Part shown: positions 33,335-64,000 of the stretch, piece after piece
Numbering within the stretch: position 1 is the stretch's first letter
Layout of the letters: the number at the start of each line of letters is the position of its first letter
Assembly: GCA_032622095.1 (NCBI GenBank)
Contig: CP136061.1
Span: 167,901,107-167,965,106 of the forward strand
DNA from: Siphonodentalium dalli
Lineage: Eukaryota; Mollusca; Scaphopoda; Gadilida; Siphonodentaliidae
Direction of reading: 5' to 3'
Length of the DNA: 64,000 nt
The notes under the pieces: generated by a model
Database searches by the model: none
What the model saw: the letters and a program-made list of their open reading frames with translations, nothing else
What the model was told of the DNA's origin: nothing
Position numbers and translations under genes: made by a program

Positions 33335-34773
33335 CTATAGGTATCACCACCACATACATCTATATCTATCCCCACCACATACATATATAGGTATCACCAC
33401 CACACACATATACAAGTCTCCCCACCACACACATATATAGGTATCCCCGCCACATACTTATATAGGTATCCCCGCCACACACATACATGTATATAGGTCT
33501 CCCCACCACACAAATATATAGGTATACACGTCAGACACATATATAGGTATCCTCACCACACACATATCTAGGTATCCCCGCCACAGACATCTATAGGTAT
33601 CCCCACCTCATACATATATAGGTATCCCCACCACATACATATATAGGTATCACCACCACATACATCTATAGGTATCACCACCACACACATATATAGGTCT
33701 CCCCGCCACATACATATATAGGTCTCCCAGCCACACACATATATAGGTATGCCCGCCACAATCATATATAGGTATCCCCGCCACACACATATATAGGTCT
33801 CCCCACCACATACATATATAGGTCTGCCCACCGCACACATATATAGGTATCCCCGCCGCAACATATATAGGTATCTACGCCACACACACATATTGGTCTC
33901 CCCACCACAAAAATATATAGGTATTATCGCCACACACATATATAGGTATCCTCACCACACACATATATAGGTATTCCCACCACATACATATTTATGTATC
34001 CCTACCACATACATATATAGGTATCCCCACCACATACATCTATAGGTATCACCACAACATACATCTATAGGTATCACCCCCACATACATATATAGGTATC
34101 ACCACCACATACATATATAGGTATCCCCACCACATACATCTATAGGTATCACCACAACATACATATATAGGTATCACCCCCACATACATATATATGTATC
34201 CCCACCACATACATATATAGGTATCACCACCACACACATATATAAGTCTCCCCACCACATACATATATAGGTATCACCACCACATACATATATAGGTATC
34301 CCCACCACATACATCTATAGGTATCACCACCACATACATATATAGGTATCCCCGCCACATACATCTATAGGTATCCCCGCCACACACATATATAGGTATC
34401 CCCACCACATATTTATATAGGTATACCCGCCACATACATCTATATGTCTCCACGCCACATACATATATAGGTATCACCACCACATACATCTATAGGAATC
34501 TCCACCACATACATCTTTAGGTCTCCCCGGCACATACATATATAGGTATCCCCACCACAAACATATATAGGTATCACCACCACATACATCTATAGGTATC
34601 ACCACCACATACATATATAGGTATCCCCGCCACATATATATATAGGTATCCCCGCCACACACATATATAGGTATCCCCGCCACATACATATATAGGTATC
34701 CTCACCACACACATATATAGGTATCCCCACCACACACATATATAGGTATCCCCACCACATACATCTATAGGTA

Positions 34774-35539
34774 TCACCACCACATACATATATAGGTATC
34801 CCCGCCACACACATATATAGGTCTCCCCACCACACACATATATAGGTCTCCCCGCCAAATACATATATAGGTATCCCCACCACATACATATATAGGTATC
34901 CCCACCACACACATATATAGGTATCCCCACCACATACATATATAGGTATCCTCACCACAAACATATATAGGTATCCCCAACACATACATATATAGGTATC
35001 CCCACCACATACATATATAGGTATCACCACCACATACATCTATAGGTATCCCCACCACATACATATATAGGTATCACCACCACACACATATATAAGTCTC
35101 CCCACCACACACATATATAGGTATCCCCGCCACATACATCTATAGGTCTCCCCACCACATACATATATAGGTATCACCACCACATGCATCTATAGGTATC
35201 ACCACCACATACATATATAGGTATCCCCGCCACATACATCTATAGGTAACCCCGCCACACACATCTATAGGTCTCCCCACCACATACATATATAGGTATC
35301 CCCACCACATACATATATAGGTATCCCCACCACATACATCTATAGGTCTCCCCGCCACATACATATATAGGTATCCCCACCACAAACATATATAGGTATC
35401 CCCGCAACATACATCTATAGGTCTCCCCGCCAAATACATATATAGGTATCCCCACCACATACATATATAGGTATCCCCACCACATACATATATAGGTATC
35501 CCCACCACATACATCTATAGGTATCCCCACCACATACAT
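34774..35539 (+). repeat. Minisatellite higher-order block, copy 2
   Basis: This matches 32548-33334. The rare CACATGCATC unit appears here near 35183, and again near 37155 and 43970, so parts of the block were copied at least four times within the array. Confidence 0.75.
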
Positions 35540-37529
35540 ATATAGGTATCACCACCACATACATCTATAGGTATCACCACCACATACATCTATATGTATC
35601 CCCACCACATACATATATAGGTATCACCACCACACACATATACAAGTCTCCCCACCACACACATATATAGGTATCCCCGCCACATACTTATGTAGGTATC
35701 CCCGCCACACACATATATAGGTCTCCCCACCACACAAATATATAGGTATACCCGTCACACACATATGTAGGTATCCTCACCACACACATATATAGGTATC
35801 CCCGCCACAGACATCTATAGGTATCCCCACCACATACATATATAGGTATCCCCACCACATACATATATAGGTATCACCACCACATACATCTATAGGTATC
35901 ACCACCACACACATATATAGGTCTCCCCGCCACATACATATATAGGTCTCCCAGCCACACACATATATAGGTATCCCCGCCACAATCATATATAGGTATC
36001 CCCGCCACACACATATATAGGTCTCCCCACCACATACATATATAGGTCTCCCCACCGCACACATATATAGGTATCCCCACCACATACATATATAGGTATC
36101 CCCGCCACACACATATATAGGTCTCCCCACCACACAAATATATAGGTATCCCCGCCACACACATATATAGGTATCCTCACCACACACATATATAGGTATC
36201 CCCGCCACAGACATCTATAGGTATCCCCAACACATACATACTTAGGTATCCCTACCACATACATATATAGGTATCACCACCACATACATCTATAGGTATC
36301 ACCACCACACACATAAATAGGTATCCCCACCACACACATATATAGGTATCACCACCACATACATCTATATGTATCCCCACCACATACATCTATAGGTATC
36401 ACCACAACATACATCTATAGGTATCACCCCCACATACATATATATGTATCCCCACCACATACATATATAGGTATCACCACACACATATATAAGTCTCCCC
36501 ACCACATACATATATAGGTATCACCACCACATACATCTATAGGTATCACCACCACATACATATATAGGTATCCCCGCCACATACATCTATATGTATCCCC
36601 GCCACACACATATATAGGTATCCCCACCACATATTTCTATTGGTAACCCCGCCACATACATCTATATGTCTCCCCGCCACATACATATATAGGTATCCCC
36701 ACCACATAAATATATAGGAATCTCCACCACATACATCTATTGGTCTCCCCGGCACATACATATATAGGTATCCCCACCACAAACATATATAGGTATCCCC
36801 GCCACATACATCTATAGGTCTCCCCGCCAAATACATATATAGGTATCCCCACCACATACATATATAGGTATCCCCACCACACACATATATAGGTATCCCC
36901 ACCACATACATATATAGGTATCCTCACCACACACATATATAGGTATCACCACCACATACATATATAGGTATCCCCACCACATACATCTATAGGTATCACC
37001 ACCACATACATCTATAGGTATCCCCACCACATACATATATAGGTATCACCACCACACACATATATAAGTCTCCCCACCACACACATATATAGGTATCCGC
37101 GCCACATACATCTATAGGTCTCCCCACCACATACATATATAGGTATCACCACCACATGCATCTATAGGTATCAACACCCCATACATTTATAGGTATCCCC
37201 GCCACATACATATATAGGTAACCCCGCCGCACACATATATAGGTATCCCCGCCACATACATCTATAGGTCTCCCCACCACATACATATATATGTATCCCC
37301 ATCACATACATATATAGGTATCCCCACCACATACATCTATAGGTCTCCCCGCCACATACATATATAGGTATCCCCACCACAAACATCTATAGGTCTCCCC
37401 GCAACATACATCTATAGGTCTCCCCGCCAAATACATATATAGGTATCCCCATCACATACATATATAGGTATCCCCGCCACACACATATATAGGTATCCCC
37501 ACCACATACATATATAGGTATCCTCACCA

Positions 37530-37750
37530 CACACATATATAGATATAGGTATCCCCACCACATACATATATAGGTATCCCCACCACACACATATATAGAT
37601 ATAGGTATCCCCACCACATACATATATAGGTATCCCCACCACACACATATATAGGTCTCCCCACCACCACACATATATAGGTCTCCCCTCCACATACATA
37701 TATAGGTATCCCCACCACACATATATAGGTCTCCCCTCCACATACATATA
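37530..37750 (+). repeat. Minisatellite sub-block with unusual unit lengths
   Basis: Two units contain an extra hexamer (ATATATAGATATAGG instead of ATATATAGG, near 37540 and 37596). They are followed by shortened units (CCACCACACATATATAGGTC) and by GGTCTCCCCTCCACATAC twice, 54 bp apart. Elsewhere the 25-bp period is nearly constant. Confidence 0.8.
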
Positions 37751-40700
37751 TAGGTATCCCCACCACATACATATATAGGTATCCCCGCCACACAAATATA
37801 TAGGTATCCCCACCACACACATATATAGGTATACTCGCCGCACACATATATAGGTATCACCACCACACATATATATAGGTATCCCCACCACATACATATA
37901 TAGGTATCCCCACCACATACATATATAGGTATCCCCACCACATACATATATAGGTATCCCCGCCACACTCATCTATAGGTCTCCCCGCCACATACATATA
38001 TAGGTATCCCCACCACAAACATATATAGGTATCCCCGCAACATACATCTATAGGTCTCCCCGCCAAATACATATAAAGTTATCCCCACCACATACATATA
38101 TAGATATCCCCACCACATACATATATAGGTATCACCACCACATACATCTATAGGTATCACCACCACACACATAAGTAGGTGTCCCCACCACACACATATA
38201 TAGGTATCACCACCACAGACATATATAGGTATCCCCACCACACACATATATAGGTATCCCCACCACATACATCTATAGGTATCCCCACCACATACATCTA
38301 TAGGTATCCCCACCACATACATCTATAGGTATCACCACCACATACATCTTTAGGTATCACCACCACATACATCTATATGTATACCCACCACATACATATA
38401 TAGGTATCACCACCACACACATATATAAGTCTCCCCACCACACACATATATAGGTATCCCCGAACATACTTATATAGGTATCCCCGCCACACACATATAT
38501 AGGTCTCCCCACCACACAAATATATAGGTATCCCCGCCACACACATATATAGGTATCCTCACCACACACATATATAGGTATCCCCGCCACAGACATCTAT
38601 AGGTATCCCCACCACATACATATATAGGTATCCCCACCACATACATATATAGGTATCACCACCACATACATCTATAGGTATCACCACCACACACATATTT
38701 AGGTCTCCCCGCAACATACATATATAGGTATTCCCGCCACAATCATATATAGGTATCCCCGCCACACACATATATAGGTCTCCCCGCCACATACATATAT
38801 AGGTCTCCCCGCCGCACACATATATAGGTATCCCCGCCACATACATATATAGGTCTCCCCGCCACACACATATATAGGTCTACCCACCACACAAATATAT
38901 AGGTATCCCCGCCACACACATATATAGGTATCCTCACCACACACATATATAGGTATCCCCGCCACAGACATCTATAGGTATCCCCACCACATACATATTT
39001 AGGTATCCCTACCACATACATATATAGGTATCACCACCACATACATCTATAGGTATCACCACCACACACATAAATAGGTATCACCACCACACACATATAT
39101 AGGTATCACCACCACATACATATATAGGTAACCCCACCACACACATATATAGTTATCCCCACCACATACATCTATAGGTATCCCCACCACATACATATAT
39201 AGGTATCACCACAACATACATCTATAGGTATCACCCCCACATACATCTATATGTATCCCCACCACATACATATATAGGTATCACCACCACACACATATAT
39301 AAGTCTCCCCACCTCACACATATATAGGTATCCCCGCAACACACATCTATAAGTCTCCCCACCACATACATATATAGGTATCACCACCACATACATCTAT
39401 AGGTATCACCACCACATACACATATAGGTATCCCCGCCACATACATCAATAGGTATCCCCGCCACACACATATATAGGTATCCCCACCACATACATATAT
39501 AGGTATCCCCACCACATACATCTATAGGTCTCCCCGCCACATACATATATAGGTATCCCCACCTCAAACATATATAGGTATCCCCGCAACTTACATCTAT
39601 AGGTCTCCCCGACAAATACATATATATGTATCCCCACCACATACATATATAGGTATCCCCACCACATACATATATAGGTATCACCACCACATACATCTAT
39701 ATGTATCCCCACCACATACATATATAGGTATCACCACCACACACATATATATGTCTCCCCACCACACACATATATATGTATCCCCGCCATATACTTATAT
39801 AGGTATCCCAGCCACACACATATATAGGTCTCCCACCACACAAATATATAGGTATCCCCGCCACTCACATATATAGGTATCCCCACCACATACATATATA
39901 GGTATCACCACCACATACATCTATAGGTATCACCACCACACACATATATAGGTCTCCCCGCCACATACATATATAGGTCTCCCAGCCACACACATATATA
40001 CGTATCCCCGCCACAATTATATATAGGTATCCCCGCCACACACATATATAGGTCTCCCCACCGCACACATATATAGGTATCCCCGCCACATACATATATA
40101 GGTATCCCCGCCACACACATATATAGGTCTCCCCACCACACAAATATATAGGTATCCCGCCACACACATATATAGGTATCCTCACCACACACATATATAG
40201 GTATCCCCGCCACAGACATCTATAGGTATCCCCAACACATACATATTTAGGTATCCCTACCACATACATATATAGGTATCACCACCACATACATCTATAG
40301 GTATCACCACCTCACACATAAATAGGTATCCCCAACACACACATATATAGGTATCACCACCACATACATCTATAGGTATCCCCACCACATACATCTATAG
40401 GTATCACCACAACATACATCTATAGGTATCACCCCCACATACATATATATGTATCCCCACCACATACATATATAGGTATCACCACCACACACATATATAA
40501 GTCTCCCCACCACATACATATTTAGGTATCCCTACCACATACATATATAGGTATCACCACCACATACATCTATAGGTATCACCACCACATACATAAATAG
40601 GTATCACCTCCACACACATATATAGGTATCACCACCACATACATATATAGGTATCACCACTACACACATAAATAGGTATCACCACCACACACATATATAG

Positions 40701-43700
40701 GTATCCCCACCACATACATCTATAGGTATCACCACAACATACATCTATAGGTATCACCCCCACATACATCTATATGTATCCCCACCACATACATATATAG
40801 GTATCACCACCACACACATATATAAGTCTCCCCACCACACACATATATAGGTATCACCACCACATACAAATATAGGTATCCCCACCACACACATATATAT
40901 GTATCCCCACCACATACATCTATATGTATCCCCACCACATACATCTATAGGTATCACCACCACATACTTCTATAGGTATCACCACCACATACATCTATAT
41001 GTATCCCCACCACATACATATATAGGTATCACCACCACACACATATATAAGTCTCCCCACCACACACATATATAGGTATCCCCGCCACATACTTATATAG
41101 GTATCCCTGCCACACACATATATAGGTCTCCCCACCACACAAATATATAGGTATCCCCGCCACACACATATATAGGTATCCTCACCACACACATATATAG
41201 GTATCCCCGCCACAGACATCTATAGGTATCCCCACCACATACATATTTAGGTATCCCTACCACATACATATATAGGTATCACCACCACATACATCTATAG
41301 GTATCACCACCACATACATATATAGGTATCACCACCACACACATATATAGGTATCACCACCACATACATATATAGTTATCACCACCACACACATAAATAG
41401 GTATCACCACCACACACATATATAGGTATCCCCACCACATACATCTATAGGTATCACCACAACATACATCTATAGGTATCACCCCCACATACATCTATAT
41501 GTATCCCCACCACATACATGTATAGGTATCACCACCACACACATATATAAGTCTCCCCACCACACACATATATAGGTATCCCCGCCACATACATCTATAA
41601 GTCTCCCCACCACATACATATATAGGTATCACCACCACACACATATATAAGTCTCCCCACCACACACATATATAGGTATCACCACCACACACATATAAGT
41701 CTCCCCACCACATACATATATAGGTATCCCCGCCACATACATCTATAAGTCTCCCCACCACACACATATATAAGTCTCCCCGCCACATACATCTATAAGT
41801 CTCCCCACCACATACATATATAGGTATCACCACCACATACCTCTATAGGTATCACCTCCACATACACATATAGGTATCCCCGCCACATACATCTATAGGT
41901 ATCCCCGCCACACACATATATAGGTATCCCCACCACATACATATATAGGTATCCCCACCACATACATCTATAGGTCTCCCCGCCACATACATATATAGGT
42001 ATCCCCTCACAAACATATATAGGTATCCCCGCAACATATATCTATAGGTCTCCCCGCCAAATACATATATAGGTATCCCCACCATATACATATATAGGTA
42101 TCCCCACCACATACATATATAGGTATCACCACCACATACATCTATAGGTATCACCACCACACACATAAATAGGTATCCCCAACACACACATATATAGGTA
42201 TCACCACCACATACATATATAGGTATCCCCACCACACACATATATAGGTATGCCCACCACATACATCTATAGGTATCCCCACCCCATACATCTATATGTA
42301 TCACCACCACATACTTCTATAGGTATCACCACCACATACATCTATATGTATCCCCACCACATACATATATAGGTATCACCACCACACACATATATAAGTC
42401 TCCCCACCACACACATATATAGGTATTCCCGCCACATACTTATATAGGTATCCCCGCCAGACACATATATAGGTCTCCCCACCACACAAATATATAGGTA
42501 TCCCCGCCACACACATATATAGGTATCCTCACCACACACATATATAGGTATCCCCGCCACAGAAATATATAGGTATCCCCACCACATACATATATAGGTA
42601 TCCCCACCACATACATATATAGGTATCACCACCACATACATCTATAGGTATCACCACCACACACATATATAGGTCTCCCCGCCACATACATATATATGTC
42701 TCCCAGCCACACACATATATAGGTATCCCCGCCACAATCATATATAGGTATCCCCGCCACACACATATATAGGTATCCCCGCCACATACATATATAGGTC
42801 TCCCCGCCGCACATATATATAGGTATCCCCGCCACATACATATATAGGTATCCCCGCCACACACATATATAGGTCTCCCCACCACACAAATATATAGGTA
42901 TCCCCGCCACACACATATATAGGTATCCTCACCACACACATATATAGGTATCCCCACCACATACATATTTAGGTATCACCACCACATACATCTATAGGTA
43001 TCACCACCACACACATAAATAGGTATTCCCACCACACACATATATAGGTATCACCACCACATCCATATATAGCTAACCCCACCACACACATATATAGGTA
43101 TCCCCACCACATACATATATAGGTATCCCCACCACATACATCTATAGGTATCACCACAACATACATATATATGTATCACCCCAACATACATCTATATGTA
43201 TCCCCACCACATACATATATAGGTATCACCACCACACACATATATAAGTCTCCCCACCACACACATATATAGGTATGCCCGCCACATACATCTATAAGTC
43301 TCCCCACCACATACATATATAGGTATCACCACCACATACATCTATATGTATCACCACCACATACATATATAGGTATCCCCGCCACATACATCTATAGGTA
43401 TCCCCGCCACACACATATATAGGTATCCCCACCACATAGTTCCATATGTATCCCCGCCACATACATCTATATGTCTCCCCGCCACATACATATATAGGTA
43501 TCCCCACCACATAAATATATATGTATCCCCACCACATACATCTATAGGTCTCCCCGGCACATACATATATAGGTATCCCCACCACAAACATATATAGGTA
43601 TCCTCGCCACATACATATATAGGTCTCCCCGCCAAATACATATATAGGTATCCCCACCACATACATATATAGGTATCCCCACCACACACATATATAGGTA

Positions 43701-44396
43701 TCCCCACCACATACATATACGGGTATCCTCACCACACACATATATAGGTATCCCCACCACATACATATATAGGTATCACCACCACATACATCTATAGGTA
43801 TCACCACCACATACATCTATAGGTATCCCCACCATATACATATATAGGTCTCACCACCACTCACATATATAAGTCTCCCCACCACACACATATATATGTA
43901 TCCCCGCCACATACATCTATAGGTCTCCCCACCACATACATATATAGGTATCACCACCACATGCATCTATAGGTATCACCACCACATACATATATAGGTA
44001 TCCCCGCCACATACATCTATAGGTAACCCCGCCACACACATCTATAGGTCTCCCCGCCACATACATATATAGGTATCCCCATCACATACATATATAGGTA
44101 TCCCCACCACATACATCTATAGGTCTCCCCGCCACATACATATATAGGTATCCCCACCACAAACATATATAGGTATCCCCGCAACATACATCTATAGGTC
44201 TCCCCGCCAAATACATATATAGGTATCCCCACCTCATACATATATAGGTATCCCCGCCACACACATATATAGGTATCCCCACCACATACATATACATGTA
44301 TAATTAAAACCGTGGGTATATAATATATGATCCTCTTTATGGATATTGTAGGAAGGTAAATTTAGCTAAAGCGGTGTGATATCTTGCAAGACAACA

Positions 44397-46307: not shown

Positions 46308-46631
46308 GTAAAAAATTGTACCACTCTTCGCTATAAAATTGAAATTGATATCCACACAAATTCCAACAGGCAATATTAAAAAAAAAAATTTAGGCCTTAC
46401 TCTTGTCGTCTTGAAGTTGAAGGTCTCGTTACATGCAGGCCCAAATAATAGTAGGGGTGGATTTTTTTTTTCCCACATTGACTGAGTTTCCAAAAGTTAT
46501 TCTCAGATGGGCTAGTTACTATCAACGGAAAATCAAATATATAAGTTCTCTAATTGATTAACAGTATTTTATCTGCACAATACATGTAAGTCCATAATTT
46601 TGAGGCGAAGTTGATCGCAAGTGGGCAACTA

Positions 46632-46830
46632 TGGGAGGCCCTTTTCACATTTATTATTTATTTGCGCTTAAGCGCAAATCATTTGCGATTAAGCATAAAA
46701 CAATTTGCCCTTAAGCACAAAACAATTTGCCCTTAAGCACAAATCATTTGCACTAAAGCGCAAATATGTGTCTATCAATTTATTTGCTCTTAAAGCGCAA
46801 ATCATTTGCGGTTAAGCGCAAATACCTAGC
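46632..46830. repeat. Degenerate CTTAAG-palindrome array
   Basis: After GGGAGGCCCTTTTCACATTTATTATT come eight diverged copies of ATTTGCGCTTAAGCGCAAAT (for example TTTGCGATTAAGCATAAA, TTTGCCCTTAAGCACAAA and TTTGCACTAAAGCGCAAAT) with 21-25-bp spacing. The GGGAGGCC(C/G)TTTTCACATTTATT lead-in recurs at 57717 and is probably the end of the element family. Confidence 0.85.
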
Positions 46831-46941
46831 ACTCCCTTACTTCCCTCTGATTGTGAATGATTGAGTCCATCTCATAGTAAATTATGATGGGCCCATAGTA
46901 ATAGCCCCATACAGACTCGAAGTTGAAGAAAAAACATATAT

Positions 46942-47568
46942 CCATGTCAGCATCTCTGTCCCTGGTCAGTGGTGTCCCAGGAATTGGTGTCTCACTCCCA
47001 GAGCTCTAGTATATTTTATTAAAGGGATATATCCTGCACAGATATATACCATTTCCATGGCCATAAAAAGGGAATTAAGGGTTACTACTATCTAACTTAC
47101 CCATAAATTATTGGCATGACCTGGTGTATCAACTAGCAACACAAGAGGAGCATTGGGCTAATTTTAACCTGTTTTAATTAGCCTGAGTACTCAACAGTCA
47201 ACTGTGAGTGTGTGTTCAACAAGGATAATCCCTAATTACATATTAGCATCCATCTATCCAAAAAAATTATGTCTCCTTCCCAGAACTCTAGTAATTTTTT
47301 GTATGATGTTTTTTAATGTATTATTGCACAGATTTGGGCCCTTACTATGGTCATATACTATAGCATGCATGTGGTGTCACTGCATGAGGGCTTGCTTACC
47401 TCATATGGTTTACTTATTGACTTAAATCAGAGGAAATAACCCTATTTTCATATTATCAGCATCCCTGTCAAAAAAGATTGGTGTCTCATTCCTGGAGCTT
47501 TGGTGTCTCAGTCCTCGAGCTCTAGTTCTTTTTATTGCACAAATCTATAGTATTGCCATGGTCATATA
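46942..47568 (+). repeat. Three diverged copies of a ~115-bp repeat
   Basis: Segments 46942-47065, 47244-47356 and 47457-47568 share CAGCATC.CTGTC, GTGTCTC..TCCC.GAGCTCTAGT, TATTGCACAGAT and CCATGGTCATA. A fourth, closest to the first, is at 48318-48423. No coding potential is evident; this is an old dispersed or locally duplicated repeat. Confidence 0.75.
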
Positions 47569-47878
47569 GTTCCACCGAGGGCTTGCTTCCCTCATATGGT
47601 GTGCCTGTATACTCGAAAATTGAGGAAAAATCAAAGTCGCCCCGACTAATACAGAATAACTAATATATACTGAAGATATTATAATGCTATCACGAGTCGC
47701 TCCAACTAAAACAGAAGGTGATACTATTGCGAGTCAGCCATTTTGATAAAGAAGTTGGGCTAGCTCCCTACCCATCCAAACCAATGAAACCAAGAGGTGA
47801 TATGTCAATAGGAGTTAATGCTAAGTTATGGAGAAACCTATTTATTCACCAGGGGTGTTTAGTTACCTATAACCATGA

Positions 47879-48060
47879 ATTGCGCATAAGCGCAATGATT
47901 GCACTGAAGCGTAATTATTTGCGCTTAATCGCAATTAATTGCACTTAAGCACAATTGATTACGCTCAAGTGTTAAGTGCAATTGATTGTGCTTAAGCAGA
48001 AATTAATTATTAAATGTGAATTTGGCCTCCCATACACTTAAGCATAAATCAAATTCCAGA
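47879..48060. repeat. Second degenerate CTTAAG-palindrome array
   Basis: The run includes ATTGCGCATAAGCGCAAT, TTTGCGCTTAATCGCAATT and ATTGCACTTAAGCACAATT, and ends with AAATGTGAATTTGGCCTCCC, the reverse of the lead-in seen at 46635. It is therefore in inverted orientation to the copy at 46632 or forms the opposite end of one larger element. Confidence 0.75.
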
Positions 48061-48117: not shown

Positions 48118-48430
48118 CTTTCATATTTATTATTTATTTGCAAATATTTGCACTTAAGCATAAATCATTTGCACTCAAGTACAAATATGCGTCTAACAAT
48201 TAAATACCAAACTTGCTCTCCCTTACTTCCCTCTGATTGTGACTGATTTGAGTCAATCTCATAGTATATTATCATGGGCCCAAAGTAGTAGCCCCATACA
48301 GACTCAATAGTTGAAGAAAATTTCTGTCCCTGGTGTCCTAATAAGTGCCTCACTCCCAGAGCTGTAGTATATTTTATTAAAGGGACATCTCCTGCACAGA
48401 TATATACCATTTCCATGGCCGTAAATAGGC
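48113..48430 (+). repeat. Dispersed repeat, copy related to 46640-47065
   Basis: TTATTATTTATTTGC, then diverged palindromes, then CTCCCTTACTTCCCTCTGATTGTGA, CATGGGCCCA, TAGCCCCATACAGACTC and finally CCATTTCCATGGCC repeat the order seen at 46650-47065. Together they define one repeat of roughly 400 bp whose 5' end is a palindrome array. Confidence 0.8.
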
Positions 48431-48972
48431 AATTAGGGCTTAAGCGTAAATAAATGATAAATGTGAAAATGCTTGAGAAATGAGGGTAAATAAAATATGC
48501 TTAAGTGTAGATCAATTATACATAAATGTAAATTAGTTATGCTTATACATAAATAATTACACTCCCATAGAGCTCCCCTCAAGCTGAAATTGATGCAACC
48601 ACATATATTGTCTGCATACCAGTAGAATCTTTCAATGGCAGATATTATATACCGGGGGGGGGGGGGGGGAGGGGTGTAATACGAAATTTACAGGAAGGTA
48701 TTTCGGGGTGGGTGACCCATGCAAATGTTTTACTTTGAGCACTTATTTGACATTTGTAACAGTTTAAAACACATTTTGAGTATTTATAACAACAAAAACA
48801 CCATATGTATGGTACTGGGACCTCATATGGACCTTAGTGCAGTGGAGATGACATTAATCTATGTCTTTTTGCATATGGGACGGTGGGGTGAAAAAATTCC
48901 TTCACCACACTATTACAAAAGAACCTTCCAGAAACGTAAAACTTAAATAAATAAACTTGTCTTGATGTCGCT

Positions 48973-54601: not shown

Positions 54602-57378
54602 TGTCTATTATTCATTTGGAGGGAATTCAGGATACACCAACAGATAGAAAATATCCTAAGGGAACTACTTGTCACTGAGTATTTAGTAAAGAACCTTTGA
54701 CAAGCTGAGCTGTAGATATAAACTACATCAGTTATAACAAAAAAATGTTTCAAATGTCCGCTCTCAGAATTCTAATGTACATGTATGTACCTGTCAATAT
54801 TCTAGTGGTGCAATCCTCAAACCATGCTGACACCCATCGGTCTCAATCATTCTTTCATTCCTTCTATTTATATTCTGTGCATGGACTGGGCTACGAGTGC
54901 ATGAACAACTGATCTGAAATATAAGAAAAGTCGATTTAATTTTTGGTTTAACATGAAACGGCATACATTTTTAAATACTTTTCTGTCAGAAAAGAATATC
55001 TATAACATCATTGGAATATTGAATAAAGAATGTGCATCATATAAGATGACATATGATATGGTGTGAGATGTGCTGCAATTGGTTTGGAATAAAAATTCAT
55101 TTTGTCCATTTTGAGTTTTTGACCATCAGCCATGATTTTGGCCGAATAACCAAAAAATGACTCGATCTCATCCATGACAAATTTCACAATGATCTGACAA
55201 AAGATGCGACCTGTAACCCTGGCCAAAGGATTTAGTCATGCAAAGAGTAAAATCCAAGATGGCTGCCAGCGGCCATGATTTTTGGCCGAACGACCCCACT
55301 AATGTAGCCGAATGACCCCAAAATTACTCATTCCCCATCTCCATGTCATGGGGGGGGGGGGATAAAAGGACCTGAGTATCCAATTACCACCTAGTAGCTA
55401 CATATGAGAAAAAATAAACTTATGATTTTATTGCTTATTATTGCTTTATATAGTCATGAAATGGTGAGAAATTAACTTTATTGAGTTGATTGTGTTGGTG
55501 TTTGGATGGATGGGTGCTACCCAAGTATGAGCAGGCTGATTATAATCCCCCCCCCCACTCACGCAGAAGCTACATCAGGGAAATTTCCAGGGCTGTTTTG
55601 ATAGCTGTTACAGGTATGGGTGCCCAAACTTGAGAAGCCCAAATGACCCCAAATTCCCAGTGGACAGTATTGAATCAACCTGAATTTTCAAGGCAATTCA
55701 ACAATAAGCGCTGTATTAAAAAATCTGCAGTTGCAATACAGCCTTCATTTGCATGTTGAATTTTTAAATCAGAAATATTATGTCCTATTTATAATATATG
55801 CGTCTGTATCTGTGTTGGTTCGGTGTAGAAGCCGTATTTTAAAGTTATATTTGGATACCGCTACATATCCTCTGCTGGAAACAGGTGTCCCCAAATTATC
55901 TCTGGATTCTTCCCTGAGCTACATTTGAGAATTTTTGGACTATATAAAGCAAAATAAGTGATAATCAGGACTTGGTATCTCCCCCAATCCCCAACTTAAT
56001 AAACTTTTTCTCGGATGAAGTATATAAAGCAAAATAAGCGATAGATGATGTTTTGGTCATATGCAGCTACTAGATGGGCGGCGGAGAAGATTCTCAGTCC
56101 TGGGTATCTCCCCAGAGTCCACCCCCTCATAAACCCAGACTCAACCAAATTTTTCTCAGACATAGTTAATTTCTTGCCATATCATCACTATATAAAGCAA
56201 AATATGTGATTGTGAGAGTAAAATAAGTGGAAAAATATTATGTGGGTGGGAGATACCAATGTTGGTAGAGGAAAATTGTTCCACTTGTAGTCCACAATTT
56301 CCTAACAGGTACACAGGATATATACCCATCCCTGTTAACTGCATATGTTCAGCAGTTCTTATGATATTGGTTGGGGTAATGCATATTTTGGGAGGAGATA
56401 TAACAAAACAAAAGACACCCATATGTAAGGCCAAGTGATAATCTGACAGATTTGATTTGATCTTAAAGTGCCTTAAGCGGAATTAATTTATTTGCTCTTT
56501 TAAAAGTAAAATTCATCTATTTGAGCTTGAGCATAAATCAGATTGTCTAGAAATAAAAAAAGAGTGAATTAGACTCTGAGAAAGGAATTACAAATAGGTG
56601 GACTAGTATATATTATTAAATACATGTATGATAGTCTCATGTCTTATTTACACTTAAGCGCAAATTATGTGCGCTTAATTGAGCTCAAATAAATGTTTTT
56701 TTACATAGAGCATAATTAAATGATTGGGTCTATGAACACCTTTCATGTATGGTACATATTCCAGATACAGATAATTTAAAGGTACGGTTGGCCTTGGCGG
56801 TGGGTATCCTGTGAAAATATTTCCACCCTTCGAAAACCGCCACAAAAATAAAGAACATCAAAATGTAGACAGACTTTGTCCATATACAAATAAGAAATAT
56901 CGCATAAACAGTATGTTATTGTCAAATGTTTGACCATTGTTATGTAAACAAAAGCATAAAAAGTTAGTTTTCTGGTGTTTGTTTATATTATGATGGTAAA
57001 CATAAAGAGCGTTCTTTGTTGGTGAATTCCTGATATGGAACTAATAAAGAGCGTTTATGCCATTTGTGCGTGTGATTAGCCAGTTCAAGAGTTGCATTAA
57101 TATTGTGCTGTCTTCTGTAACACAATCAGGCTCTTGCTTAGGTAAAATATTGTAGGTCTTTATGATAACATGCTGTTTACGTGATGGTCATGGTATATAT
57201 GAACGAAACTGTATGCGTTTTAATGTTTTTCTATTTACGGTGATTAGAACAAATATCAATATTTTCGACAACTAAGGCCTCACATGCCTTTAATAGCACT
57301 TTGAATGTTCAAATGATTTACACTGTTTACATAATTTGCACTTAAGTGCAAATGAACAGGTCATGGTGAACCAATGAT
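54602..57378. other. Non-coding sequence with scattered old repeats
   Basis: No gene is recognised. Visible structure includes GGCCATGATTTT.GGCCGAA twice (near 55131 and 55272) with nearby GACCCCA words. CTATATAAAGCAAAATA.G.GAT occurs near 55939, 56021 and 56189, and an inverted form near 55430. Isolated CTTAAG-type half palindromes lie at 56468-56530, 56650-56685 and 57336-57355. Several TATATAAAG words are part of that repeat rather than supported promoters. Confidence 0.5.
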
Positions 57379-57569: not shown

Positions 57570-57715
57570 AAGATAGACTGATCAGTTTTATACAGATCAA
57601 CCAGTGGTTCACCGAGACCTGCAGATGATTGTTGAGCTTCGGTACATTCAATGCGATTATTAATAAACATGCAGGTCTGGGTGAACCACCAATAGATCTT
57701 TATATAGACTAATCT
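57570..57715. repeat. Imperfect inverted repeat next to the palindrome array
   Basis: The left arm contains GTGGTTCACCGAGACCTGCA (57604-57622). The right arm has TGCAGGTCTGGGTGAACCAC (57670-57689), and both continue outward through AAAGAT.GACT..TC-type sequence. It belongs to the same AGACT/GATC repeat family as 57379. Confidence 0.7.
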
Positions 57716-57716
57716 A

Positions 57717-57852
57717 TGGGAGGCCGTTTTCACATTTATTCCCCAATTGCACTTAAGCGCAATTCATTTGCGCTTAAGCGCAAATACAATATTTGCGCTT
57801 AAGCGCAAATGAATTGCGCTTAAGCACAAATCATTTGCGCTTAAGCGCAAAT
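57717..57852. repeat. CTTAAG-palindrome array with GGGAGGCC lead-in
   Basis: GGGAGGCCGTTTTCACATTTATT precedes five palindromes starting at 57745, 57766, 57791, 57812 and 57833. Those at 57766, 57791 and 57833 are the perfect ATTTGCGCTTAAGCGCAAAT; the others have one to three changes. Spacings are 21, 25, 21 and 21 bp. Confidence 0.9.
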
Positions 57853-57959
57853 ATAAGTTGAGGCTATCACCCCCATATTATTTTTATGAAGGGCTAGTCC
57901 AAATTATTGTTTTCATTAGGAATCCATTTTCCCTCCTTATTTCATTTTCATTGTGGCAG

Positions 57960-58010
57960 CTGGGTGTACAATACCAGGAATGTGAATTTCATTTCTAATT
58001 CTAAATAATT
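57960..58010 (+). other. Probable 5' UTR part of the integrase-core gene exon
   Basis: A pyrimidine-rich tract and CAG acceptor (TTTTCATTGTGGCAG, AG at 57958-57959) precede the start codon by 51 bases, suggesting that an upstream non-coding exon is spliced here. The promoter was not identified. Confidence 0.45.
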
Positions 58011-58323
58011 ATGGATTCGGCTCAAATTAATCAAATTCTGACCACTATGAGCAGGATTGTCAGGAATTGCGAACGGTTTTTAATTTATGATGGAGGAAAC
58101 AGGACTGTTCTGTCAGCAAATGAAAGAGACTCATTAAAATCTGAATTGGATCAATGTATTCTCAATTTGGAGAGGATTAAACCTTCATTGAGGCAATCTC
58201 GATACGATGAGTTGAATGCCTCATTACAACTAGTTAAGACATTTTTTTCAAATGAAGCTGAACCAAGACATGAATCAAGAACAGAAGTTAGTTCTTTAAC
58301 GGAATCAGTTCCCAGAGGGAGAG
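58011..58323 (+). CDS. Integrase-core-domain-like protein, coding exon 1 (N-terminal region)
   Basis: The ATG at 58011 has A at -3 and G at +4. The exon encodes about 104 residues, beginning MDSAQINQILTTMSRIVRNC, predicted mostly helical, with a polar, serine-rich end (...TESVPRGRG). Short helical leaders of about this size stand before the GRP motif in the animal integrase-core family, but they are poorly conserved, so this exon is assigned mainly by its link to exon 2. The donor GAGAG|GTTAGT gives a phase-1 intron, and the first two bases of exon 2 complete a Gly codon, producing the typical R-G-R-P motif across the junction. If unspliced, the frame stops at 58328. The exon has clearly lower A+T bias than its surroundings. 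Confidence 0.65.
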
Positions 58324-58487
58324 GTTAGTATCAATTTATTTGAATCCTTTTTCAAATTTAGGACAGAAAAGTAATATTTTACTCACCGGATACCTCTTGT
58401 TTGTTGTTGGATTGTTTTAAAATAAAACAAGAATGTTGATTGAACACATCTACACACCCAGGGATGCTGCTTGAGGATCTCCTCATT

Positions 58488-58535
58488 GGGGGGGGGGGGG
58501 GGGTAATATAAATAATTTAACTGCACCCCCCCCCC
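58488..58535. repeat. G16 and C10 tracts facing each other
   Basis: G16 at 58488-58503 and C10 at 58526-58535 are separated by 22 A+T-rich bases, so a G:C hairpin could form in DNA or in the intron RNA. Confidence 0.85.
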
Positions 58536-58595
58536 TTGAAACATATCATACATCTCTGCTTTAAAATTTAGAAATTTGCATATCAATCTGTGTAC

Positions 58596-58810
58596 GTAAG
58601 GCTTTATTTGCGCTTAAGCGCAAATAGGTTATTTGCGCTTAAGCGCAAATAAATTATTTGCGCTTAAGCGCAAATAAATTATTTGCGCTTAAGCGCAAAT
58701 AAAGCCTTACACACACGTATGTAAGGCTTTATTTGCGCTTAAGCGCAAATAGGTTATTTGCGCTTAAGCGCAAATAAATTATTTGCGCTTAAGCGCAAAT
58801 AATTTCTTAC
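58596..58810. repeat. Perfect 25-bp phased palindrome array (seven copies)
   Basis: The identical ATTTGCGCTTAAGCGCAAAT starts at 58606, 58631, 58656, 58681, 58731, 58756 and 58781: every start differs by 25 bp or 50 bp. Two sub-blocks are bounded by the outer inverted sequence GTAAGGCTTT...AAAGCCTTAC, with ACACACGTAT between them. All seven cores are mutation-free, unlike those at 46-48 kb. It lies in intron 1. Confidence 0.95.
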
Positions 58811-58837
58811 ACACACATGTCTGGGTTAACTATCGAT

Positions 58838-58921
58838 AAATCTTTATGAGACCGATCAGTCTTCCTGGCACAGTGCTCACTTATGTATTAAAGAGAGGGA
58901 TCGAACTCTAAATTTCTTGAA
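58838..58921 (+). repeat. Dispersed repeat downstream of the palindrome array, copy 1
   Basis: ATCTTTATGAGACCGATCAGTCTTC, then CAGTGCTCACT, AGAGAGGGATCGAACTCTA and TTTCTTGAATA. The same words in the same order follow the second palindrome array at 59858-59950, so array and tail form one composite element. Confidence 0.8.
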
Positions 58922-59246
58922 TATTGAAATTTTGTTTGTTTGCAGATTTGTAAATGTTTATTAAATAATATCAGTAAATAATTATTCAGGGTCTTTCAAA
59001 AGAAATCAGAATTAATTTGTGACATATATCAAGCATGTGATATTTAGCAGGCTGTATAAGCTACTAAATTGTTCTTAATAAGAATAATGGTATCTTTTAG
59101 ATTGATACAAAGCACCAAACACCTCAGATAAGTAACATGTGTTCCCACAAATTAAACATATTTCCTGATAAGGCTGTATACAGTATAATTAAATTTATTT
59201 TCTAAAAAAAAATATAACTAAATTAGAGATGCATAATCTGAATTAA

Positions 59247-59573
59247 AGCTCCAAATATACTATTTCTTTGACTTCGGGGGCAAAAAATATTTTATTCGAG
59301 TCGAGGAACCCACCCGTCAAAACTCAGAGTGATCAAATATTAATTTTTGAAATTTTTTATTTCTCGAGATACCTACTTATTTGTGGCCTGGAAAATATTT
59401 GTCAAGGTGACGGTCTCGGACAAAATTGCAGATGAAGATGGATAACTCTAAAATAAAGTGGTACTATGGCCAAATTTTTTGATAATCAAGTGATAATATG
59501 GCCATATTTCATTCAACAACATGTTGATAATTAACATGTTTTGGGAAATTTTATACCACAGGATTGAGTACCT
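59247..59573. mobile_element. Foldback MITE, copy 1 (partial)
   Basis: Blocks CTTTGACTTCGGGGGCAAAA, TCGAGTCGAGGAACCCACC, TTCTCGAGAT, GATGGATAACTCTAAAAT and the right end GGATTGAGTACCT are shared with the 480-bp element at 61907-62386. The left terminal repeat is truncated or diverged (TTAAAGCTCC), and the right-hand internal arm is missing. Confidence 0.75.
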
Positions 59574-59649
59574 TTTAATAAAATCATATCATACATCTGT
59601 TTTATAATTTATCAATTTTCATGCTTACCAAAGCTGTCAATCTCTGTGT

Positions 59650-59850
59650 GTTAGGCTTTATTTGCGCTTAAGCGCAAATAGAAAGGAAATACTTTATTTG
59701 CGCTTAAGCGCAAATAGAAAGGAAATAGGTATTTGCGCTTAAGCGCAAATAGCTTATTTCATTTGTATGTAGGCCTAAGGCTTTATTTGCGCTTAAGCAC
59801 AAATAGAAATAAGTATTTGCGCTTAAGCGCAAATAAAGTCTTACATACAC
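59650..59850. repeat. Palindrome array, second copy
   Basis: Perfect ATTTGCGCTTAAGCGCAAAT at 59660, 59696, 59731 and 59815, and a one-base variant at 59785 (CGCTTAAGCACA). The flanks GTTAGGCTTT and AAAGTCTTACATACAC match the borders of the array at 58596. Spacing is looser here (30-36 bp) because of GAAAGGAAAT spacers. Confidence 0.9.
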
Positions 59851-59857
59851 AGGTCGT

Positions 59858-59950
59858 CAATCTTTATTAGACTGATTGTTCAAAAATAGACGATTGGTCT
59901 TCAACATACAGTGCTCACTGGTGTAAGAGAGGGAACTCTATTTTCTTGAA
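59858..59950 (+). repeat. Dispersed repeat downstream of the palindrome array, copy 2
   Basis: ATCTTTATTAGACTGATTG, GACGATTGGTCTTC, CAGTGCTCACT, AGAGAGGGAACTCTA and TTTTCTTGAATA match 58838-58921 in order. Confidence 0.8.
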
Positions 59951-59999
59951 TAAAATTGAGAACAAAAATTGGTTGAAAGATGGGGTATCTGGACGATGT

Positions 60000-60765
60000 C
60001 TGTCCGTTTTTCCATCTGTTCGTCCGGCCGTCCGTCTGGGTGCACATTTGAGCCTAAGGTGCACGTTGTCATGGAAGGAGCCGAAGACAAAAGAAAGTTT
60101 AACCCATCTAATTTCGAACTACTACCTAAAACCCATTATTCATGGGCAGTCTTAAGTGGTCAAACCTGTCAAAAACAACAAGGAAAGACCAAAGATATCG
60201 GCAGACTTCTGTCGATCTGTCCGGGCAGATATCTCAAACATTGGTTGTCAGATCTGAATGAAATTTTGAATGGTATAATGGATGGCATTACTATGAGGCC
60301 ATTCAATGGAGTGTTCAATCTTTTTTTTCGGGTTTTTTGTTCTAGAGTTACATGTAATACACAGTATTCATCTTTGTTTATCTGGAAATGTCTGTCCAAG
60401 CAGATATCTCAACCACTGGTTGACGGATATCAATGAAATTTGGTATGGATGTTCACTACTAAGGTGGCAATCAATTAATTGTTCAATCAATTCATTCATC
60501 TTATAGCCATCTAATATTTATTACACTCATTAAACAGGGGTGACAGTTTATATTAGACTAAGCTGCCCCCTCTCAATATATCACAATTTGTGATTGTTTA
60601 TCTTGTTGTTTCTATGTTTATATATGTATGTATATGTGTATATTGGAAATAAATTATCCTATCCCATCCTTCATTCATGTTTTCTTTTCTTGAGTTATTT
60701 ATCTTTGATCAGTATGAAAATATTGTTTTCTTTTTCCGTCAGATATCTCAACCATACTTTTTTGG
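60000..60765 (+). repeat. Degenerate tandem segments (CAGATATCTCAA family)
   Basis: A CTGTCCGT-rich start (60000-60040) is followed by CAGATATCTCAA at about 60225, 60400 and 60740, the first two with TGGTTG.C.GAT.T.AATGAAATTT tails. This is a common style of invertebrate non-coding repeat. ORFs across it (up to 155 codons at 59969-60436) have no recognised domain. Confidence 0.65.
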
Positions 60766-61394
60766 CTTGATTTTACCACTGCAGGTGCAACCTCTTGTTT
60801 ATAAGTTTTGTTACTGCATATTTTTGGGTATCCATGCACCCATTTGTATTTATTCAAATTGTTTTATTCATTATTTTAGGCTTTGAGGCAAAGAACTTTT
60901 GAAATTACCTGCAAATACGTGTAGCACAGCATTTCAGTATATCACAGTTATTTATTTCCATTTATTTTTTCATAGAGAAGATACTTACATAAATAGTATT
61001 GAGCTAATAGATATTCAGGGTTCTGACAAGTAGAAACACAGTAGTGACACAGTTTTATACTCATATCCCTTATAAAGGTCAAGTATGAGATTATTTGCAG
61101 AGCCATGGCGACAGGGAGGGGGTTTTGGGAGGTGTCTCAATTTGGTCAAAATATTCCACAGTTGGAAATTTCATAATGGACACAACATTGGTTGGAAATA
61201 TCACACCAACAATTTATTGAAAATTTTCTTGTAGTTTGATTTTCAAACAATTTATTGTTTTTGGACCAATATTTGCTTGTTTTCCTTCTTTTGGTAATAT
61301 TGGACTGAAATGGCCATCGAAAATTTTCCAACCTTGGTGGGGGGGGAGGGGTGTCAGGTTGTAAATTTCTAACACTGGGAAAGCTCATGGCCAG

Positions 61395-61730
61395 TCAAAA
61401 ACTGCTAGTTAATTTAAGAAAACAATATTATCCTACATTTGGTAAAAATTGTCACTGGAATTGTCATCAGTTAGAAATTTTCCAACCTAAGTCGGGTGTC
61501 AGGTTTGAAATTTCCAACTCTTGCAAGGCTTGAGGCCAGTCTAGATGCTAGGATTTTGTGATTTTCTTGTTCAGATTTCAAAATTTTCCTACACTGGCCG
61601 CTCCGATGTGTCCTAGTCTCTTCCCCGTGGCCCAATAAAAACTGCTAACGAGTTTAAGAAAACAATGTTTTACTACATTTGGTCAAAATTGTGGACTCAA
61701 ATGGTCACCAGTTGGAAAATTTCCAACCTA
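61395..61730 (+). repeat. Local duplication of a ~95-bp unit
   Basis: AAAAACTGCTA..., AGAAAACAAT, CTACATTTGGT.AAAATTGT and TTTCCAACCTA occur at 61395-61492 and again at 61636-61730 (offset ~241) with about 15% differences. TTGGAAA/TTTCCAA words continue upstream to 61150. Confidence 0.8.
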
Positions 61731-61817
61731 TGTGTATTATCACCGATCTCCTGTGCAGAGCTGATTTCATAGTATTTTATGACTATTGATTTTTTGTGTA
61801 ACCATTTTATACTTTAG

Positions 61818-61897
61818 GGAGACCAAAGATTGGTGTGTCAATCGCACAGATAAAGTTTCTGCAGGAGAAGAACTTCACAGCATCCCAAATTTCAAAG
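61818..61897 (+). CDS. Integrase-core-domain-like protein, coding exon 2 (GRP motif and first half of the HTH)
   Basis: The acceptor TTATACTTTAG (AG at 61816-61817) opens a phase-1 exon giving GRPKIGVSIAQIKFLQEKNF, then TASQISK. In the animal integrase-core family a GRP-x-(F/Y)-x-I segment, a leucine/phenylalanine helix and I-(A/S)-x-x-LG(V/C)S form a DNA-binding helix-turn-helix ahead of the catalytic core. Joining this exon to exon 3 after AAG at 61897 restores ISK-VLGCSRS with exactly the family spacing and matching phase 0. The next bases are GAAATA, not GT, so the expected donor is not canonical. The nearest GT (61909), inside a MITE, would add 11 bases, including an in-frame TAA at 61904. 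The exon is therefore orphaned unless GA is used. Confidence 0.75.
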
Positions 61898-63228
61898 GAA
61901 ATATAAAGGTACTCAATCCGATCAGAGGGTCCCCATCTCAACAGATTCCAACAACAACAATCCGATCAGAGGGTCCTATATTACTCTTTCTTTGGCTTTG
62001 GGGGTAAAAAATATTTGATTCGAGTCGAGGAACCCATCAAACAAAGCTCAGAGTTATTAGATATTGATTTTTGAAATTTGTTATTTTCTCGAGATGAGTA
62101 CTAATAATTGCCTTCAACTTCGTAATATGCTCGAGATGTATACACCAAAACACTATTCAACCAGACAAGGATGGATAACTCTAAAATCAAGAGGTAATAA
62201 TAACGCAATTTTGACTGTGATCTGGGCCAGAAAGTATTCCCGATAATGAAAAATAATAGATTTCTAAAATCGATATCTAAAAAATCTGAGCTTTGATGGG
62301 TGGCTTCCTCGACTCAAATCAAATATTTTTGACCCCCGAAGTCATTGAAATAGTAATTGAGAGGAGTTTTATCGGATTGAGTACCTTTAAGTTACAAGTG
62401 AAAACTAAAAAATTCAATTTCAAAAGATATTAAAATAACTACTGGTACATTGATCTAATCATATGTGCTCAATACCATTTTTTTTTTTTTTTAATTTGGT
62501 TCAAATATTGATTTTGTATTAAGGATAATATGAAATTTGATGGAAACAGAAAATTGACAAATTGAAAAATGGGGGACCTATTTTCTGTTCACCATAAAAA
62601 CTACATGTATTGGGCGATTGGAACTATAAACAGAGTTGAGACAAAACCTTAAAAACAACAATCCATGAGTCTGATGAATAAATTCAATATTAAATAAATT
62701 GTCTTTTTCAGAGAAGTTCTGAGTTATAGGAAAAGGCCACAAATGCAGGAGATGGCATCTAAGATGCTCACATCTGTGAATGGATCACCATGGAAATTTA
62801 AGGGGACCATATCATTTCCATTGACCCAAAATACCCTGCAAATGCAAGTTGGTTTAGGCTGGTCTAAAATTTTGTGTGGAATGTAATTCCACTTGTGTGG
62901 AATGTGATTCCTCACCTGAAAATGTCAGACAACAAAATTACAACATATTTCTAGTGGGCAGATTACATAAGTATTTCATGCTCAATTTCAACAATATTGT
63001 TGTCAGTGATTATACTCTGAACATCCCTCACAAATTAAGAATAATGTTTAAACCTATACTTTCAAATTTAATGGAGAAAATACATGCAGGAGTAAATGAT
63101 TTATTAGTTTTTTGTAGCAACTCTGTTATTTAATATTGTCAAGGACATAGATCATAATTTTAAATAGTTCCGGTCTTTATGGTCCCCATTGTATTTATTC
63201 ATAAAACCTTTTTCTCTTCTGTATAAAG
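61898..63228 (+). other. Intron 2 with GA rather than GT at its 5' end
   Basis: The 5' edge reads AAG|GAAATATAAAGG and the 3' edge TCTTCTGTATAAAG|GTTTTG. It contains the 480-bp MITE at 61907-62386 and about 840 bp of A+T-rich sequence without a convincing exon. The 85-codon ORF at 62876-63133 has no known domain. Confidence 0.55.
61907..62386. mobile_element. 480-bp foldback MITE at the exon 2 border
   Basis: Terminal repeats AGGTACTCAATCCGAT (61907-61922) and ATCGGATTGAGTACCT (62371-62386) are perfect reverse complements. Subterminal arms also pair: GGCTTTGGGGGTAAAAAATA with TATTTTTGACCCCCGAAGTC, and TCGAGTCGAGGAACCCATC with GATGGGTGGCTTCCTCGACTC. The right flank is TTAA and the left flank is ATAA, so a TTAA target duplication with one change is possible. 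GATCAGAGGGTCC occurs twice in the left arm. No coding capacity. A relative lies at 59247-59573. Confidence 0.85.
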
Positions 63229-63375
63229 GTTTTGGGCTGTAGCCGAAGTCATGTTTACAACACCCTTTATGCCAAAGGAGAAAAGCAGAGAGACAAATAT
63301 TCAAATATTTCAAACACAGATTTGGACCAGATTGTTACAACTTTACATGAGAAGCATCCAAATGCTGGAGTAAAG
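63229..63375 (+). CDS. Integrase-core-domain-like protein, coding exon 3
   Basis: Exactly 49 codons lie between the acceptor (TATAAAG, AG at 63227-63228) and the donor GTAAAG|GTAAGA (63376), phase 0 at both ends. The product begins VLGCSRSHVYNTLYAKGEKQ and later reads YSNISNTDLDQIV and LHEKHPNAGVK. LG(V/C)S-x-S-x-V-Y completes the helix-turn-helix; Y-S-(D/N)-I-S-(D/N)-x-(E/D)-LD-x-(I/L)-V followed by H/D-PN-x-G is the conserved linker that precedes the integrase catalytic core in these proteins. Spacing from the HTH serine to the Y-S-N-I-S motif agrees with family members I recall. The Asp/Asp/Glu core would be in exons beyond the window. Whether this is a domesticated host gene or a transposon-derived one cannot be told here. 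Confidence 0.8.
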
Positions 63376-64000
63376 GTAAGACTAACGATATTAAACTGAT
63401 GTGAAACAATCCGATAGGGTGATCAAATAGAAATGGAGAATAATCATGCTCAAAGTACCGGTCGTTATTTTTACAAATATTATATCCAAATTGACAACAC
63501 AATCCATCATTCTTATACATTAATTAATTGCAGTGACTGTCGATGGCAAAATCGTTTTTGTTAGTTGAGTGAGCATAGTTCAGACGATGTTTTCTGTGGA
63601 GTGGTATTGATTTGCTTCAAGTCACTACATTGTACATCCAGAGAGCTTTTGTTGTTTTTTTTTACTAGTATTACAAATTAAATTTTTGCAGTTTTTTAAT
63701 GAAAGAGCGAAGTGTTTTTAAGTGTATTATTGCAGTGATTATACATACAAAATACTTAGATATTATTATGATAATGCATGGGTCTCTGCTTGGCTTTTCA
63801 AATTTGTGGACATTGTCGCCTTATTGTGCCACTAGCATCAGCCTTAATTTCAACCCCTTCTATACTCAGTTGACGCTCCCACTCAGTATTAAAAGTCAGT
63901 GGAATGGTCTATTGTTCATTTTTAAGTATGTTCAGGTTATAAATAGAAGAACAGAAGGATTCATATTCATTGCTGGAAAATGTTCAGATAATAAGTTTAA
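63376..64000 (+). other. Start of intron 3, nothing further seen
   Basis: After the strong donor GTAAGACTAACG the sequence is A+T-rich to the window edge, with no exon that continues the integrase-core reading frame. Confidence 0.5.

Follow-up and report, generated by a model that had tools for sequence, protein, structure and literature searches.

The palindromic repeat studied here lies in a window of 64,000 nucleotides (C1:167901107-167965106; the window is the whole stretch of DNA that was analysed), and the genome searched comprises 2.2 Gb in 9 contigs. The first half of the window is filled by a satellite with a 185-bp unit, repeated in tandem about 161 times (1-29889, 92% matches). A 25-bp minisatellite, CCCCACCACATACATATATAGGTAT, is present in about 523 copies at 31218-44301, and its 25-bp period is seemingly unrelated to the palindrome grid described below. 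The features related to the repeat are as follows, with the short non-autonomous relatives of the transposon being called family A.

46630-48034, unstranded: non-autonomous relative (TATGGGAGGCCC..GGCCTCCCATA), a 1,405-bp pair of terminal inverted repeats with palindrome arrays at both ends and a target duplication that is no longer recognisable
48119-48460, unstranded: second non-autonomous relative, truncated (the decayed copies at 48.1 kb), with BLAST matches to 46725-47084 and to several family-A loci
57709-57714, plus strand: left target-site duplication CTAATC; the genome has a single match to the right end followed by CTAATC (GGCCTCCCATACTAATC), at C1:167977306-167977322
57715-64000, plus strand: IS3EU-like DNA transposon, left 6.3 kb of 18,496 bp (continuing to C1:167977316, outside the window), placed by the start of homology among copies and by the right end with its duplication
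57715-57740, plus strand: left terminal inverted repeat TATGGGAGGCCGTTTTCACATTTATT, common to 18 copies, with an inverted match at the far end of a copy on C9
57745-57852, unstranded: array 1, subterminal palindromes in 21/25-bp steps, the first unit exactly 30 bp from the tip
58011-58323, plus strand: predicted transposase exon 1, with an ATG start and the donor G|GTTAGT; identity among 18 copies is 98.8-100%
58596-58810, unstranded: array 2, blocks of 4 + 3 perfect palindromes with AGGTT/AAATT linkers and hairpin arms GTAAGGCTTT/AAAGCCTTAC, in predicted intron 1
59645-59852, unstranded: array 3, five palindromes (one with 1 mismatch) in 30-54-bp steps, in predicted intron 1
61818-61905, plus strand: candidate exon 2 (GRPKIGVSIAQIKFLQEKNFTASQISKEI, HTH-like), with an in-phase acceptor after exon 1; its 3' junction is tentative
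63229-63375, plus strand: candidate exon 3 (VLGCSRSHVYNTLYAKG..HPNAGVK, HTH-like, donor GTAAGA), an open frame with acceptor and donor

Array 2 contains seven exact copies of the 20-bp palindrome ATTTGCGCTTAAGCGCAAAT (P), starting at 58606, 58631, 58656, 58681, 58731, 58756 and 58781. These seven mutation-free copies, pointed out in the initial annotation, are real, and none is expected by chance. The window as a whole has 27 matches with up to 3 mismatches, compared with 0.00 expected from 100 shuffles. The strict 25-bp grid described for the copies is present in array 2, with one 50-bp step (58606-58800), but does not extend genome-wide, since the sampled non-autonomous copies are mostly spaced by 20/21, 30 and 36 bp. 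In the orientation of the window, the block scheme is GTAAGGCTTT-[P]-AGGTT-[P]-AAATT-[P]-AAAGCCTTAC, with ACACACGTAT-like spacers between the blocks. The inverted arms had been taken as the bounds of the whole array; GTAAGGCTTT (58596-58605) and AAAGCCTTAC (58701-58710) do enclose the first four copies, whereas the second block opens with GTAAGGCTTT and closes with a degenerate arm, AATTTCTTAC. Among the element copies, array 2 varies from 5 to 15 units and shows 100-bp block duplications. Its linkers are found in both orientations (AGGTT/AACCT, AAATT/AATTT and AAGTT/AACTT), as is the spacer. Beside the array, at 58485-58540, G/C homopolymer runs differ between copies and could affect the assembly there.

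The exact 20-mer occurs 4,027 times in the genome, and the same letters read backwards, used as a control pattern, do not occur. One match was found in 257 Gb of prokaryotic DNA, at a contig end and at about chance level, and none in viral contigs. A literature search, limited to papers, returned none with the palindrome core. Genome-wide spacing was counted with two fixed patterns. P-AGGTT-P is present at 68 places, 59 of which lie within big elements as delimited here, and several of the remaining places adjoin such elements. P-C-P, corresponding to a 21-bp step, is present at 161 widely scattered places. Because the first pattern is concentrated in the big elements and the second is dispersed, the 25-bp grid can be considered mainly the big element's own, and the palindrome a property of the whole group.

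The boundaries of the big element were obtained by comparing its copies. A DNA search with 58560-58870 gave many homologous places, often paired 16-24 kb apart. In 18 copies with unrelated flanks, the homology starts at about 57715 with TATGGGAGGCCGTTTTCACATTTATT, preceded by differing sequence. Since this start coincides with a family-A-like terminus, the left end of the element is placed there, 0.9 kb ahead of array 2. With a copy on C9 as a ruler (left end near 57611956, right end at 57593313), the right end was predicted as ..GGCCTCCCATA-CTAATC, about 18.6 kb downstream. A single match to the predicted 17-mer exists in the 2.2-Gb genome and lies roughly as far away as expected, and the element therefore spans C1:167958821-167977316. 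Its right end mirrors the left one in decayed form, including an inverted exon-1 remnant (167976407-167976703) and an array (167976015-167976198). Such an inverted remnant is present for 14 of the 23 copies with an intact exon 1. The shortest element spans measure 17.6-18.7 kb; those that exceed this range probably contain other insertions. Copies at C3:137697225-137776235 and C9:100229475-100274000 appear nested within other copies. Just left of the transposon, at 56776-57293, lies a repeat that takes the place of the part corresponding to 59248-60156 in one subfamily of big elements, which includes L027, L031 and L035; the repeat is flanked by single palindromes at 56646 and 57334.

The transposase gene is predicted to start with exon 1, of which a protein search found 23 intact full-length copies in the genome. 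In 21 of them, an integrase core (PF24764, rva_4) follows in the same orientation, 6.3-13.9 kb downstream, so that about 21 near-identical element copies pair the conserved exon with an integrase. For the copy in the window, the core is located at C1:167966437-167966961, 1.3 kb past the window edge. Between the two, candidate exons 2 and 3 are HTH-like, with exon 3 giving a weak Pfam match to HTH_23 (E = 0.2); a stop-free join of candidate exons 1-3 was not found in the window copy. No match to an alpha-kinase passenger gene, as carried by fungal IS3EU, was obtained inside the element. Other PF24764 integrases have no paired exon 1 (e.g., C6:47372274, C1:6235518 and C6:125798024), which suggests further related transposon families.

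Taken with the relatives described below, it is almost certain that the repeat noticed at the outset makes up array 2 within an element of 18,496 bp, which has matching ends flanked by a 6-bp target duplication and carries an integrase gene, and that a high-copy short relative has only the tip and the palindromes in common with the left 6.3 kb of this element. The array does not stand alone, but lies within a giant transposon and within the small relatives of that transposon. The early suggestion of a tandem-hairpin transposable element was thus right about the context, but the array is not an element in itself. It had also been considered that the palindrome might be a plain fragment of a catalogued transposon end with random spacing elsewhere; half of this holds, in that it is part of a transposon end and that its spacing varies elsewhere.

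IS3EU and GingerRoot elements are characterized by an integrase-type transposase, termini of the form TA..TA and target duplications that are usually 6 bp long (PMC10045372). They are expected to have no HHCC zinc motif upstream of the core. TA..TA termini are found at both ends of the element and of its relatives (TATGGGAGG..CCTCCCATA), and the duplications are 6 bp long (CTAATC in the element, seven others in the relatives). The PF24764 core, inside the element and in about 20 copies, is inferred to be the IS3EU transposase domain. The TATGG..CCATA termini also fit the TAYGG..CCRTA ends of fungal IS3EU (PMC12730594). The 6-bp duplications, the integrase-type core and the short non-autonomous relatives are further points of likeness to this group. 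The element can therefore be called IS3EU-like, and it resembles IS3EU/GingerRoot. It differs in its length of 18.5 kb, its mirror-image ends and its arrays of a perfect 20-bp palindrome, no such arrays being described in the IS3EU literature consulted (PMC10045372, PMC12730594).

Other superfamilies agree less well with these ends. In Tc1/mariner terms the TA would be target sequence, but here it belongs to the terminus and the 6-bp direct repeat lies outside it, so that this superfamily is rejected. Polinton/Maverick elements have AG..CT-type termini and encode a DNA polymerase B of their own; the TAT..ATA termini here differ, the 6-bp duplication being in common. Ginger1 and Ginger2, with TGT..ACA-type termini and 4-5-bp duplications, are rejected on both points. 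Membership of piggyBac is rejected, as there is no TTAA target duplication. Some Helitron/Helentron elements hold tandem-repeat cores, and the variable tandem arrays within an abundant non-autonomous element recall them, but they lack target duplications and cut-and-paste terminal inverted repeats, both of which are present here. In CACTA, hAT (Hermes), P and Sleeping Beauty transposons, several transposase sites, mostly non-palindromic, lie inboard of the terminal repeats. The multiple repeat sites inside the terminal repeats are a likeness, although those transposons belong to other superfamilies, with other target duplications and termini. Hermes is cited as a subterminal-repeat transposon (PMC10368747). 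The main explanation, a DNA transposon that is giant and young and carries subterminal repeats, is of an ordinary sort. The mirror ends, the arrays of perfect palindromes and their intronic position are the unusual details.

Judging by a sample, made of the first-listed 20-mer sites on C1, a non-autonomous relative of about 0.8 kb accounts for most of the 4,027 copies of the 20-mer in the genome. Nearly all sampled loci bear the terminal repeat TATGGGAGGCCCTTTTCACATTTATTATTTA, with palindromes just inside. Family-A terminal repeats number 1,840 + 1,784 genome-wide (up to 3 mismatches), and complete copies are mostly 0.5-1.3 kb long, with palindromes at both ends. Perfect 6-bp target duplications flank six independent complete copies (AAATTG, CATTGC, TATATG, GAGTTC, CAGTTG and TGTCTC), outside the TA termini; another, AAATAG, belongs to one insertion common to several loci. 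Compared with the left 6.3 kb of the big element, the sampled copies show a detectable likeness only at the tip and in the palindromes. In older copies, the palindrome units are decayed. The decayed copies noted at 46.6, 47.9 and 48.1 kb are explained by the non-autonomous relative and the fragment next to it, except that the copy at 46660 is perfect. Five loci (L055:3124, L056:8594, L057:3596, L058:3313 and L060:4018) have a family-A insertion next to an older, larger repeat whose tip is diverged (AATGGAARGCCTTTTTCACATGTATTA) and whose palindromes are imperfect; copies of this repeat have about 4 kb in common.

The position of the palindromes relative to the tip is fixed. The distance from the tip to the start of the first unit is exactly 30 bp in 18 of 18 autonomous left ends and in 25 of 31 family-A ends, although the bases right before the unit differ (CCCC versus ATTT). 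Imperfect palindromes in the 30-bp register are also seen in a more diverged element (AATGGAAGGCCTTTTTCACATGTATT.., L018) and in another family (L058:7465). Because only the tip and the palindromes are shared with the left 6.3 kb of the big element, the register is fixed and both ends of the relatives carry palindromes, we read the palindromes as functional sites. They would serve a giant cut-and-paste transposon, IS3EU/GingerRoot-like, as its subterminal and internal repeat sites, putatively bound by its transposase; we give this reading a probability of roughly 0.62. The fixed register and the two-fold symmetry point to a transposase dimer sitting beside the tip. The 20-bp site would probably be bound by a dimer of the element's own transposase, plausibly via the HTH-like part of the candidate exons ahead of the integrase core. 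In comparison, the piggyBac transposase uses a dimeric C-terminal domain to bind an internal repeat, a 19-bp palindrome at bp 17-33 of the transposon end (PMC7351741). Both systems have a palindromic repeat near the tip, dimer binding being demonstrated for piggyBac and deduced here from sequence. PiggyBac differs in its TTAA target, its transposase and its 19-bp palindromic repeat at each end in place of many-unit arrays (PMC7351741).

In such a model, the unit 30 bp from the tip would be among the end sequences recognised for cleavage. Further units may raise the local concentration of transposase and could help to join two distant element ends, and the ones in intron 1 may have a further role in regulating the transposase gene. 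Two observations count against a role of the internal units: arrays 2 and 3 are some 0.9 and 1.9 kb away from the tip, which is far for a transpososome, and the recent substitution rate of their palindromes is not below that of the flanking intron, giving no direct sign of purifying selection on single internal units. The weak HTH_23 match and the lack of a stop-free join between candidate exons 2 and 3 in the window copy likewise speak against the model. A binding array for a dimeric protein, one of the roles first proposed, is the best-supported putative role, given the fixed tip distance and the sharing between families.

The perfection of the copies had been attributed to recent amplification or to selection. 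Divergence from the majority is 0.37% in the array-2 palindromes against 0.9-1.5% in the adjacent intron, which hints at purifying selection. This hint vanished when singleton substitutions alone were counted, with 10/3,900 sites (0.26%) in palindromes and 29/9,503 (0.31%) in the intron (Fisher p = 0.73). Selection as the cause of the perfection is therefore not supported. Older variants common to several copies are rarer in the palindromes than in the intron, which fits replacement of units by turnover. Since the singleton rates do not differ and older family-A units are decayed, recency and turnover are enough to explain the perfect look. It is likely that rapid turnover keeps the array uniform, and that what is seen is a young array in a young host element. 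Unit number would shift fast through hairpin or strand-switching replication and unequal exchange, a process that could duplicate units and 100-bp blocks, flip linkers and keep the units alike.

This turnover might be all there is, the palindrome being amplified and homogenised as a passive by-product of hairpin-driven strand switching and unequal exchange, with idle internal arrays. The neutral-like singleton rate, the highly variable unit number, the block duplications and the flipped linkers all agree with this, and a stem-loop amplification model exists for the repeats of small transposons (reviewed in PMC8268682). Such a process would not be expected to keep a first unit at +30 across families despite different preceding bases, or to retain palindromes at both ends of a high-copy relative, and we consider it unlikely as the whole explanation.

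The intronic arrays allow two further readings. A regulator of the host or of the element might bind the sites and control the transposase gene, arrays 2 and 3 acting as intronic enhancer or silencer; they do come after a conserved exon and its splice donor, and the 5-15 sites per copy recall an operator cluster. The same palindromes occur in relatives with no visible gene, which makes this quite improbable. Transcription of intron 1 could alternatively yield long perfect hairpins, and the resulting dsRNA would feed small-RNA silencing or RNA editing. The predicted fold of 58590-58815 has an energy of -152.8 kcal/mol (z = -23), each block forming one long hairpin, and some hairpin arms are changed on both sides (GGC/GCC versus GGG/CCC). 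But any palindrome array folds in this way, and the arms may have changed only once, with the change then passed on as the block was copied. Compensatory changes between half-sites, which the initial annotation proposed to look for, are unconvincing: the excess lies mainly at one position in old copies, is confounded by shared descent, and few non-canonical perfect palindromes exist. The topology would allow a structured intron RNA in the case of arrays 2 and 3, but the near-tip arrays come before exon 1 and palindromes are found in relatives without visible genes, so that as a main role it is very improbable.

Returning to the transposase-site reading, a broader proposal can be made, although only tentatively. 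IS3EU-like transposons might carry perfect-palindrome dimer sites, locked at 30 bp from the tip, in arrays that recur deep within the element and in intron 1 of the transposase gene, and use them both as a platform for synapsis and as an autoregulatory operator; the arrays would evolve by hairpin-driven turnover. If true, this would represent a self-renewing, tunable end architecture, undescribed for the IS3EU-type superfamily. In any case, a repeat that was unexplained can now be assigned to a giant DNA transposon that was active recently and has many near-identical copies, from a superfamily whose mechanism is little known. The tip-to-palindrome register provides a directly testable model of transposase binding, and the near-identical copies record the growth, flipping and uniformity of palindromic arrays on a short time scale.
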